From the NCBI RefSeq assembly GCF_900169565.1, contig NZ_LT828648.1:3198501-3262500 (forward strand): a DNA stretch of 64,000 nt. The letters run 5' to 3'. Made by a program: the position numbers and the translations under genes. Position 1 is the stretch's first letter. The number at the start of each line of letters is the position of its first letter. The notes under the pieces were generated by a model. That model was not told where the DNA came from. It saw nothing but the letters and a program-made list of their open reading frames with translations, and did not search any database. Positions 1 to 3,391 of the stretch are shown here, piece by piece. This DNA comes from Nitrospira japonica (GTDB lineage: Bacteria > Nitrospirota > Nitrospiria > Nitrospirales > Nitrospiraceae).

Positions 1-744
1 GAAGTTTGTATGCGAATCCAGCGTGTCGGGGGAGGTCTGCTGATTTTTGACCGGACGCATGGCGAACGCCCGCACTTGCCAGTCGGTGGCTTTTCCCCAC
101 GACCAGTGGGCGCCAACAAACGAATATGGGACATTGCTGTAGAAGCTTCGCGCAATCAGCCGGCTCTTTCCAAACGCTTGGGTAAACTTGCCGATCTGCA
201 GTTCGGTCGGCTGACCTGATCCCAGAAAATTATCTGACCACAGACTGCCATAGAGCTGAAGCATGTCGTTCCGATTCTCCATGTTGCCGCTGACGATCAC
301 ACCGTAGTTGTACAACGGGCGCGCGTCCAGAAACTCCGCGTGGAATTTAAACGGCTTATAGCGCATCTCCATGTTCACGTCCGTGCGTTCCGAGAATTGC
401 GCCCCGCCGGTCGTCTCATTCTTCTTGACCGGCTGACTGTAGGACTCATAGCGGGTCCGGAAATCAACGCTCAGATGGAGCCAGTCCGGGACGTGGAGCG
501 CCTGATCAAGATGGAATTGCGATTGAGGGAGGCGTACAGGCGACCCATCCGACATCACGATGTCGTGGAGCCGTTGCACAAGAGGGCCGAACCGCGGTGA
601 TTCTTCTTCGGATGGCGACGATTCTAAAATTCGTGCAGAGTTCTCGCTCGGCGGATTCGCCGGAGAGTTCTCTTCAGCCCATGCCGCCTGAACCGTGAGC
701 GTGCTGCAGAGAAGGAGGAAGCGCAGAAGGTAACGGAGGACCAT
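1..744 (-). CDS. Alginate-export-type outer-membrane porin, N-terminal part (runs off window)
   Basis: Reading the minus strand from an ATG at 744 gives 248 codons with no stop before the window edge, so the 3' part is missing. The product starts with a hydrophobic Sec signal (Leu-rich, ending AAWA before EEN). A linker of about 60 residues follows, then the stretch LSVDFRTRYESYSQ, which resembles the opening of alginate-export/AlgE-like beta-barrels with alternating aromatic strands. These outer-membrane proteins act as porins; the substrate cannot be told here. A weak AGGG lies about 9 bases before the ATG. The fold is inferred from the strand pattern and my memory of Nitrospira homologues. 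Family fairly likely, function unknown. Confidence 0.7.
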   Translation of the reverse strand, partial: MVLRYLLRFLLLCSTLTVQAAWAEENSPANPPSENSARILESSPSEEESPRFGPLVQRLHDIVMSDGSPVRLPQSQFHLDQALHVPDWLHLSVDFRTRYESYSQPVKKNETTGGAQFSERTDVNMEMRYKPFKFHAEFLDARPLYNYGVIVSGNMENRNDMLQLYGSLWSDNFLGSGQPTELQIGKFTQAFGKSRLIARSFYSNVPYSFVGAHWSWGKATDWQVRAFAMRPVKNQQTSPDTLDSHTNF

Positions 745-861
745 GCTGAACGCCCTGTCACGCGGCAATCACAGCCATACGCCTGCCGCACCAACAAACA
801 CTCATATTCCTTGTTCTATACCGACCTACCGGTGGAAAGGTGCCGCTCGGTTGTGATCATC

Positions 862-960
862 GAGATGGCCATACACAATTGGCGACTTGGTTATAGTATT
901 CCTCGACTTTATTCAACTCGTATCACCGTAGGGTCCGGAGTTCGAATCCAGGCCATCTTC
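862..960 (+). other. tRNA-like remnant
   Basis: GAGATGG at 862-868 pairs with CCATCTT at 953-959 (one G-U), as a 7-bp acceptor stem would. TTCGAATCC at 941-949 matches a T-loop. The T-stem does not pair (only the outer and closing pairs form), no anticodon arm can be drawn, and no CCA follows. It may be a decayed tRNA or the tRNA end left by an old integration. It could also be chance. Confidence 0.25.
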
Positions 961-1037
961 GTGTCGCTGACCGTACTCGGGAACCTCTGTCGTAGAGAGA
1001 AAGAAGGGAACAGGCTGACAGATAAAGGAGGCGGGTG

Positions 1038-1075
1038 GGGGACAGTTTGTATCAATTGGTGGATAAACCGTCCCC
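1038..1075. promoter_or_regulatory. Inverted repeat upstream of sigma-54 promoter, candidate activator site
   Basis: GGGGACAGTTT at 1038-1048 and AAACCGTCCCC at 1065-1075 form an 11-bp inverted repeat with one mismatch and a 16-base spacer. It sits about 40-75 bp upstream of the -24 element, a usual place for an enhancer-binding protein to bind. GGGGACAG-type inverted repeats also occur as relics of REP-like elements, so a regulatory role is inference. Confidence 0.35.
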
Positions 1076-1113
1076 ATAGAGCAATTTTTACGTGTTAAGG
1101 CTAAAGAATGAGG

Positions 1114-1128
1114 TGGCACTGGATTTGC
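1114..1128 (+). promoter_or_regulatory. Sigma-54 (-24/-12) promoter
   Basis: TGGCAC-N5-TTGC followed by TTTT matches the RpoN consensus, with exactly ten bases between the -24 GG and the -12 GC. The start of transcription would fall near 1140, about 55 bases before the ATG of the 27-codon ORF at 1195. Confidence 0.75.
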
Positions 1129-1194
1129 TTTTCTCATGTACTTGGTACGTTGTTATGTCAGACTCGATCAAAGAGTAACGAAGGAGGATCAAGC

Positions 1195-1278
1195 ATGCAG
1201 AGTTTAGCGTTTGTACTCTCCATCATGGGTTTTGGACTTGAACTCGCCGCATTTCTTCTGACGGTTTCCGTCTTATAG
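1195..1278 (+). CDS. 27-residue hydrophobic peptide behind a sigma-54 promoter
   Basis: ATG at 1195 is preceded by AAGGAGG with good spacing. The 27 codons encode a peptide that is almost entirely one hydrophobic helix (starting MQSLAFVLSIMGFG and ending TVSVL), with one Glu inside it. This is the make-up of single-pass bacterial small membrane proteins. The unit is compact: sigma-54 promoter at 1114, strong ribosome site, ORF, stop, then two hairpins (1287-1305 and 1335-1377). I do not recognise the family. Sigma-54 control suggests a stress or nutrient-responsive peptide, by analogy with phage-shock-type membrane regulators; that is inference. It could alternatively be a leader whose RNA, not peptide, matters. 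Confidence 0.6.
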   Translation: MQSLAFVLSIMGFGLELAAFLLTVSVL

Positions 1279-1334
1279 AGCCTGACAGGCGCGATGTGGG
1301 CGCCTATTCGTGGTGCCCGCATGAATTCCACAAC

Positions 1335-1377
1335 AGAAGGCCATTCATGTTCATCTCAGAGCATGAGTGGCCCTTCT
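1335..1377 (+). terminator. Strong hairpin after the 27-residue ORF
   Basis: AGAAGGCCATTCATG and CATGAGTGGCCCTTCT form a long, nearly perfect stem around a 12-base loop. A smaller perfect hairpin (AGGCGC, 7-base loop, GCGCCT) lies at 1287-1305. Neither has a run of T after it, so the pair may terminate with Rho or protect the 3' end. I see no gene in the rest of 1279-1602. Confidence 0.5.
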
Positions 1378-1602
1378 TGCTTCCAATGACATCACGAGTT
1401 CCGCTTGTGGGATCTTCTAGGCCGCGCCCTTGGCTAATGACCAGGTGTACCGGAGCTTGCCATAGCTAAGGTATCTTGAGGAAGTAAGCTAGTTCACAAT
1501 CGCGGATGAATGGTGAGTACGAGTTCCGTAAGGGACGAAGCCAATCGAAGGGTAGGGACATACGAGGGCGGGGTTAGCCTGTATGCCTATGTCAGAGATG
1601 GA

Positions 1603-1908
1603 TCATCGAGACCCTCTAATCGGTACACGCGTCTTGCGCCGACGACGGCTCTGATCGCCGTTCTTTTCGACTTCCCCGTTCGCTTCTTCTACTGGTGAAG
1701 CTTCCGCTTTTGCTGACGCCTCTTCTGCAGGAGGCTGACTGCTCTGTTGAGCCAGATCTGCTCTGGCTTCGGCGACGATATCTTTAAACTTCTCACCGGC
1801 CTCCAAGGCAACCTCGGATACTGTATCAAACAGGTAGATCCCCCCTTTGATCAATTCCTTGGCCAAAGGACGCAACGTCGCTCCTATACCTGAAAGAATA
1901 TCAGCCAT
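1603..1908 (-). CDS. DUF5132-type small envelope protein
   Basis: The product has 101 residues. Residues 1-50 hold the helical motif LAKELIKGGIYLFDTV and a following EVALEAGEKFKDIVAEARADL, typical of DUF5132 proteins, some of which sit near gas-vesicle or magnetosome genes in other bacteria. The second half is a disordered Ala/Glu/Ser tail ending in a basic RRRRK patch. The ATG at 1908 has AAGGAGAGGA about 8 bases upstream. It is divergent from the gene at 2213, with a 304-bp shared upstream region in which I see no clear promoter. The biochemical role of the family is not established. The basic tail could bind nucleic acid or acidic lipid; that is speculation. Confidence 0.7.
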   Translation of the reverse strand: MADILSGIGATLRPLAKELIKGGIYLFDTVSEVALEAGEKFKDIVAEARADLAQQSSQPPAEEASAKAEASPVEEANGEVEKNGDQSRRRRKTRVPIRGSR

Positions 1909-2212
1909 CGGTGTCTTTCCTCTCCTTGGAGACTCGTCGGTCTCTTATTTCAATGCCTCGAACAGCCACATTCGGCCCTCCGGCGCATGAGCATGAGCTG
2001 ATCGTATGAGGTCTTGGAAGCCTAATTGCCAGATCTGGGCGGTCATTTTGAACGAACAAACCTTTTGCGGTCAATCCCCAGAGTTTATTCAGACTGCCGG
2101 ATAGCCGTGCAACATCCGCTCAAGGCCTGCTCACAATGCGAAGACTAATTTACAAACCGATTGAATTTCAGCTAGAGTACTCCATCTTCGTGGTCTCTCT
2201 AGGAGGTGAACG

Positions 2213-2581
2213 ATGCAGGAAGGCACAGCTGGGACGATTGACACAGATCGGACCGAATCAACCTCTTGGACCGACTCGGTTGCCCCGGGCGGCAACAGCG
2301 TGCTCAGGACGGTGGAGGACGGCGTCAACTCGGCTGGCCACGCCACGTGGGAATTTTTTCATCACCTCCCCGGTCACGGAGCGGTTATTGGCGGGGCAAT
2401 GGGTCTCGGCGCTGCCATGGTCGTTGGCGTCGCTGAATTAGCGACGGCGTGCTTTGCAGGCTATGTCAGCTACCGCATTTTCGCGTATGGTGAATCGCTA
2501 TGCGAGGCCATTGAAAACGCCATCAAGTTTGAATCCGGCAAACTCGACAAGGAAGAAATCGACAAGCCCATCCCGGATTGA
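2213..2581 (+). CDS. Conserved-looking small membrane protein of unknown function
   Basis: The ATG at 2213 follows a textbook AGGAGGTGAACG. The 122-residue product has a Ser/Thr/Asp-rich N-terminus of about 45 residues, an amphipathic segment with HATWEFFHHLPGHG, and one glycine/alanine-rich hydrophobic stretch (about residues 58-85) that looks like a membrane helix of the glycine-zipper kind. An acidic C-terminus ends DKPIPD. It is divergent from the DUF5132 gene, and both are small proteins with one hydrophobic helix, so a shared envelope role is plausible. I do not recognise a family. A longer overlapping frame at 2136 lacks a ribosome site and is rejected. Confidence 0.65.
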   Translation: MQEGTAGTIDTDRTESTSWTDSVAPGGNSVLRTVEDGVNSAGHATWEFFHHLPGHGAVIGGAMGLGAAMVVGVAELATACFAGYVSYRIFAYGESLCEAIENAIKFESGKLDKEEIDKPIPD

Positions 2582-2665
2582 GCCAGCGTATCCATCACCC
2601 GCCACAATCCGACGAGAAATCGTCCGCCAGACCCTGGTTTCTCCCTCGTGCGATTCAAAACATCT

Positions 2666-3391
2666 CTAGTGCTTCATCGTCGGCAGGTTGAACTGTGTCC
2701 CGTTCAGCACCGCATATGCGGTACCCGGCCACACGAAATGCCGGCCTTCCGGTGCGTGGATTTGAATGCCGGTGAACAGGCCATAGTCGCTTCGCATGGG
2801 ATCGACAGTGAGTCGAATCATCCGTTCGAGCTCCTCGACGATGACCGCATGGGCAATTCTGGTCAAAGAGAGCAGATTCGGAACCTCGCCGTACTTGAGC
2901 TTGCGCAAAAGATGTTGCTTGAGAATACTCTGCTCCAAGTCGTCGGGATCGAGCGCCAATTCGAGAGCCCCGTTCGCAAGTTCGTGGTGAAACGCCACTA
3001 AGGCACCGCAGGCATGAGAGACCTTCTGGCGACCTGGTCGGTAATAGTTCCCGAATTCTCCCTGAGCATCGATCGCGATGTGAGGCAGCGCATAATAGGC
3101 ATATCGCTCTCGGCCATGTTCAATCGGAGCATGTTGCTGAGCGGCTGAGAACCCCGTCTTGCCCAAGGTGAGCATTCCCCCGAGGCTGGAAAACGTGAAG
3201 ACCTCTCCCCACGTTTTCTCGATAGCTTCCACGAGGGATAAGGCGACCTCATCGCGGCAGACACTGGCGAATGCGATGGTATTCTCCGCCCGAAATCCGT
3301 GGCAGTGGAGTGCCTCATGCGACCCGGCAACGAAGCGGTCCTGCGACACAGCCCCGGGAAACTCACGCGCCAGTGATGATTTCCAGCTCAT
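2666..3391 (-). CDS. LCIB-type (theta class) carbonic anhydrase
   Basis: The 241-residue product matches the limiting-CO2-inducible protein B/C family of zinc carbonic anhydrases. Candidate zinc ligands and catalytic residues follow the family order: C45 in CRDE (Arg46 and Asp47 being the expected dyad), H87 in QQHAP, the PHIAID segment at 103-108, and C128 in SHACGA. The central 64-82 stretch rich in Gly and Ser also fits. The family interconverts CO2 and bicarbonate; no signal peptide is seen, so it should act in the cytoplasm. In an autotroph it could balance CO2 and bicarbonate for carbon fixation. It stands alone, convergent with the gene at 2213. Activity is inferred from motifs. Confidence 0.8.
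   Translation of the reverse strand: MSWKSSLAREFPGAVSQDRFVAGSHEALHCHGFRAENTIAFASVCRDEVALSLVEAIEKTWGEVFTFSSLGGMLTLGKTGFSAAQQHAPIEHGRERYAYYALPHIAIDAQGEFGNYYRPGRQKVSHACGALVAFHHELANGALELALDPDDLEQSILKQHLLRKLKYGEVPNLLSLTRIAHAVIVEELERMIRLTVDPMRSDYGLFTGIQIHAPEGRHFVWPGTAYAVLNGTQFNLPTMKH

Follow-up and report, generated by a model that had tools for sequence, protein, structure and literature searches.

Small single-span proteins that partner P-type ATPases are a general theme, with the SERCA regulators, KdpF and MgtS as examples (PMC10925321). KdpF, a single-span protein of 29-30 residues in the KdpFABC potassium P-type ATPase, is co-transcribed with kdpABC, while MgtS, a conditional single-span protein of 31 residues, stabilises the Mg2+ P-type ATPase MgtA. 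YohP, a stress peptide of E. coli, is 27 residues long and has one hydrophobic span. In the window (the whole 64-kb stretch of DNA that was analysed, from a genome referred to here as G000) we identified a gene for a 27-residue peptide that resembles KdpF in its size, its single span and its being encoded with a P-type ATPase, would resemble MgtS in being conditional, and matches YohP in length and hydrophobic span. It differs from KdpF in having its own sigma-54 promoter and terminator and in lying in an island whose ATPase is of the heavy-metal (HMA_2) type and is not KdpB. The promoter class of MgtS differs from sigma-54, and action on an ATPase is only proposed for the peptide described here. 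Unlike YohP, the window's peptide is linked to an island, and in this genome it has no basic residues. Alignments of the peptide with KdpF, MgtS and YohP scored no better than alignments with shuffled sequence, and searches of Pfam, NCBIfam and PDB with the peptide returned nothing meaningful. By analogy, the peptide most likely works in the manner of KdpF, MgtS or sarcolipin and not as a demonstrated relative of them, and we class it as a new family of an already known type, the small membrane regulators.

To look for relatives of the peptide we searched 175 genomes of the family and found it in two other genera, with 81% identity in genome G013 and 63% identity in genome G151, together with a decayed copy in genome G163. 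Intact copies are present in 3 of the 236 genomes of the order. Looking for wider homologues, we scanned genome contigs with two degenerate DNA patterns, which gave none and 8 chance matches. A plasmid search for the peptide gave no match, and profile matches in other genomes were discarded as they lay mostly within long membrane proteins, whose open frames run to several hundred codons. The sequence-only reading had proposed a strong ribosome site followed by a 27-codon hydrophobic ORF, and both are borne out: the frame runs from an ATG at 1195 to a TAG stop ending at 1278, the same ribosome site precedes it in G013 and G151, and the two homologous frames reveal purifying selection. Changes among the three ORFs are concentrated at third codon positions (pairwise differences by codon position of 6/1/13, 8/2/10 and 7/2/14), with dN of 0.12-0.19, dS of 0.7-1.5 and dN/dS of about 0.08-0.26. 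Synonymous change therefore runs about 4- to 12-fold above amino-acid change, which shows selection on the peptide itself. The residues invariant across the three peptides include a G-F-G-L-E block and A-F-L-L-T-V. Glu16 is the one charged residue in G000 and G013 and is joined by Lys2 in G151. Judged from these comparisons, the ORF is almost certainly a real gene for a 27-residue peptide, and its product is predicted to span the membrane. The gene is unannotated. Because gene callers pass over ORFs this short, most regulated membrane peptides of non-model bacteria go unnoticed.

An RpoN promoter had also been read upstream of this frame, and here the initial reading proved accurate. At each of the ten specified positions of TGGCAC-N5-TTGC the site has the consensus base, and the required GG-N10-GC spacing is kept; the published consensus is TGGCACG-4N-TTGC(T/A) (PMC7910581). 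A corresponding site lies at nearly the same distance upstream of the ATG in the two other genera. Within the window it is the sole exact match. Across the 4.08-Mb genome, exact matches number 10 against 6 for a reversed control pattern, so the site alone is near chance and its significance comes from conservation. The distance from promoter to ATG is 81 nt in G000, 78 nt in G013 (TGGCACGCAGCTTGC, 10/10 bases) and 82 nt in G151 (TGGCACAGAAGCTGC, 9/10 bases). Given a chance expectation of 4.15 one-mismatch matches per 64 kb on both strands, such a site would occur in a given 5-nt interval about 2 times in 10,000. The remaining upstream region could not be aligned among the three genomes, with a single 8-mer common to one pair at differing positions and no shared motif of at least 8 nt at a like position, so the promoter has been kept against a diverged background. 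These data make it very probable that the peptide gene is driven by sigma-54, and the promoter spacing predicts a transcription start near 1140. A leader hairpin, GGCTTGATTCAAATCAGGCC, is common to G013 and G151, and the leader of G000 folds differently.

The inverted repeat further upstream had been proposed as the site of the activator. The repeat is real and occurs once in the genome, which rules out a REP-like repeated element, but it is absent upstream of both homologues, and repeats of its form number 36 in the 64-kb window against about 25 expected in Markov sequence, which is not above chance. A role for it as an activator site is unsupported, and we judge it to lie outside the conserved unit (Table 1). 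A tRNA-like T-arm stretch, GGAGTTCGAATCC, lies at window positions 932-957, where neither ARAGORN nor Rfam called a tRNA, and is possibly a decayed tRNA end.

Two hairpins had been assigned to the unit, and of these only the terminal one has counterparts in the homologues. Its stem, GGCCACTCATG...CATGAGTGGCC, is nearly unchanged in G013 and G151 and is followed in G013 by TTTTTTT, while no helix matching the first hairpin was found in either genome. The claim of a compact transcription unit is upheld by the joint conservation of promoter, ORF and terminator in the two other genera and by the presence of one RpoN gene in the genome (PF04552, E 1.7e-56).

Table 1. Features of the peptide gene and of the surrounding island. 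Positions are those of the window unless a locus or contig is named.
Feature	Position	Strand	Basis or remark
Inverted repeat GGGGACAGTTT-N16-AAACCGTCCCC	1038..1075	+	proposed activator site; judged outside the conserved unit
Sigma-54 (-24/-12) promoter TGGCACTGGATTTGC	1114..1128	+	10/10 consensus match, kept in homologues
5' leader	1140..1194	+	predicted start near 1140 from promoter geometry
Ribosome-binding site AAGGAGGA	1181..1188	+	conserved in G013 and G151
27-codon ORF, product MQSLAFVLSIMGFGLELAAFLLTVSVL	1195..1278	+	one hydrophobic span, invariant Glu16; homology, dN/dS
First hairpin	about 1294..1322	+	moderate fold, z -2.7 against shuffles; G000-specific
Terminal hairpin, probable intrinsic terminator	about 1335..1377	+	z -5.9 against shuffles; stem conserved
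Conserved island	L061:7892-14123 = G000:C1:3187892-3194123, plus window 1-3391
Alginate_exp outer-membrane protein (N-terminal part in window)	1..768	-	Pfam PF13372
DUF5132 protein	1603..1908	-	Pfam PF17195
122-residue membrane protein (TM122), island marker	2213..2581	+	island comparison
LCIB-type beta carbonic anhydrase	2666..3391	-	Pfam PF18599

The window starts inside a conserved island that extends leftward (into L061, G000:C1:3180001-3200000), and the peptide adjoins genes of this island in each of the three genomes. The islands of G000, G013 and G151 contain a CAX Ca2+/H+ exchanger (TIGR00378), several DUF5132 proteins, a heavy-metal HMA_2 P-type ATPase, an HMA_2/DUF454 protein and TM122. 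A TolC-type outer-membrane protein belongs to the island and was not seen in the G013 contig; the carbonic anhydrase and the Alginate_exp protein are in the islands of G000 and G151, the former recurring in most island copies, and a ParA-like ATPase is found in several copies. With TM122 as its marker, the island was located in 13 of the order's 236 genomes, from two families, and all 3 genomes with an intact peptide fall within these 13 (hypergeometric chance of about 1e-4). When the 13 island loci were filtered for a sigma-54 site, a ribosome site and a short hydrophobic ORF, only these three were returned. The peptide is missing from most islands (G005, G072, G106, G107 and others), which excludes it as an essential subunit. 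In G013 and G151 some 120-155 bp separate the peptide gene from the HMA_2/DUF454 gene, and in G000 it sits between the Alginate_exp and DUF5132 genes. Its distance to the P-type ATPase gene is less than 1 kb in G013 and G151 and about 5.6 kb, within the same island, in G000, where the ATPase gene is at G000:C1 3191562-3194123. In all three loci it forms a unit of its own and belongs to no operon.

The island is reminiscent of ferrosome (fez) clusters in that it encodes an HMA_2 P-type ATPase as well as an HMA_2 protein containing an (S)IPGRVRLRV stretch. Unlike ferrosome clusters, however, it includes genes for a Ca2+/H+ exchanger and for a carbonic anhydrase, and its ATPase reads DYGTG at the position where classical heavy-metal (copper, zinc) pumps have CPx. 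A ferrosome reading of the island was rejected because the scanned island proteins of G013 and G151 gave no match to DUF4405 (FezC-like), and an intracellular-carbonate reading was considered and set aside. Our literature search found no paper describing the island.

Islands of the second family carry another hydrophobic peptide, of 26 residues (MSFLSEILASFLGVLAAF(F/T)VLGALAV), beside a DUF454-type gene. It is intact in two genomes (L085:10996-11076, plus strand, and L087:9093-9173, minus strand), is interrupted by stops in L084 and L086, and has a strong ribosome site and a terminator with no sigma-54 site. It aligns with the 27-residue peptide no better than shuffles do and was rejected as a homologue, but we keep it as a possible functional counterpart. 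This pattern suggests that the island repeatedly includes a tiny single-span peptide, but one that it can do without.

Selection on the peptide in three genera, and the same island each time, suggest that it probably serves one island membrane protein as a switchable helper. We give a probability of roughly 0.5 to the reading that the peptide, made conditionally and crossing the membrane once, acts as an accessory or regulator of such a protein. The earlier suggestion of a "stress peptide or membrane regulator" would thus be sharpened, by way of the island linkage, to an accessory peptide of an ion-transport island. We hypothesize that RNA polymerase with sigma-54 transcribes the unit once an enhancer-binding protein is active and that transcription ends at the unit's own intrinsic terminator, which would make the gene monocistronic. 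The peptide, as a facultative component of the island, would then be inserted in the membrane, where it may bind an integral island protein and adjust the stability or activity of this partner under the sigma-54 condition. Weighing against this reading, intact sequences number only three and the decayed G163 copy sits outside the island, and physical linkage by itself names no partner. Given that small single-span regulators of P-type ATPases recur, the HMA_2 P-type ATPase would be the first candidate, with the 122-residue or HMA_2/DUF454 proteins next, although the ATPase specifically is a tentative choice. What sequence comparison does establish is a gene with coding selection, a conserved promoter and terminator, and linkage to a defined island, and this makes the partner question directly testable. 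A bolder proposal, which we regard as unlikely, is that in this order sigma-54 drives a whole class of tiny single-span proteins of which the 27-residue one is a switchable subunit of the DYGTG P-type ATPase in an undescribed island of the Ca2+/bicarbonate type.

The peptide could instead work on its own, as an envelope-stress or membrane-potential peptide like YohP or TisB that is controlled by sigma-54 and acts on the lipid membrane, its proximity to the island being accidental. Its size and hydrophobicity fit such a role, and the sigma-54 genes of the order, which encode among others small single-span proteins, proteins with CBS domains and a probable Hsp20-like protein, resemble a stress regulon. 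However, TisB-type peptides have basic residues at their ends (PMC12719787), whereas the window's peptide has no basic residue at either end. Further, its intact copies are confined to island-bearing genomes and it has no similarity to YohP, and we consider a stress peptide of this sort rather doubtful.

It is also conceivable that the functional product is the RNA, either a small or a dual-function RNA, and that the peptide is minor. The terminal hairpin, kept in both primary sequence and pairing, would be in keeping with this, but dN well below dS is a strong coding signature, the ribosome site is conserved, the first hairpin and the leader are not kept across all three genomes, and no Rfam match reached the gathering score. 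In G163 the decayed copy, which sits outside the island, is interrupted by an in-frame stop, no longer has its start in frame and has a broken promoter; this is what a dying gene should look like, and not an RNA-only unit. Among the relatives examined, none was seen to keep the promoter without the frame: G013 and G151 have retained both, and G163 has lost both the frame and the consensus promoter. An RNA as the main product therefore seems improbable.

A short hydrophobic ORF in a structured RNA also recalls the toxin of a type I toxin-antitoxin pair, which would be restrained by an antisense RNA. No sigma-70-like site was found on the minus strand over 1114-1377, which is a weak test, and the peptide has no basic residues, is present in a single copy and has a dedicated sigma-54 promoter, which is unusual among type I toxins, making a toxin very improbable. 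The idea that motifs came together by chance and that there is no gene draws on the near-background number of exact sigma-54 matches in the genome and on the chance-level inverted repeat, but is already contradicted by the homologues, in which promoter, ribosome site, frame and terminator are conserved across three genera, and we give it next to no credence.

Finally, we searched the order for the use of this promoter class. TGGCAC-N5-TTGC followed by AGGAGG within 45-75 nt was found in 119 of 236 genomes. The pattern gave about 158 matches and its reversed control about 22, and this roughly 7-fold excess indicates that the sigma-54 consensus is in use in the lineage. At the 30 loci read, the products of the downstream genes include CBS-domain proteins and response regulators, as well as a lipoprotein with a relative behind another G000 site and several small proteins of 24-62 residues with a single span, suggesting that sigma-54-driven single-span small proteins form a class in the order. 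The peptide thus points to a sigma-54 regulon rich in such proteins in this lineage, of which our literature search found no description. Sigma-54 sites precede single-span proteins of 24 to 62 residues at L095, L098, L104, L106, L108 and L114 in other genomes, and a conserved MVALFFLLLGG... family is among them. In G000, exact sigma-54 sites also lie about 80 nt before the genes for two single-span proteins, of 55 and 59 residues (L005 and L010; G000:C1:795360 and 2806017, minus strand). At L004 (G000:C1:649838, minus strand) an exact sigma-54 site lies between the gene for an enhancer-binding protein with a GAFTGA motif and the gene for a 168-residue exported protein.
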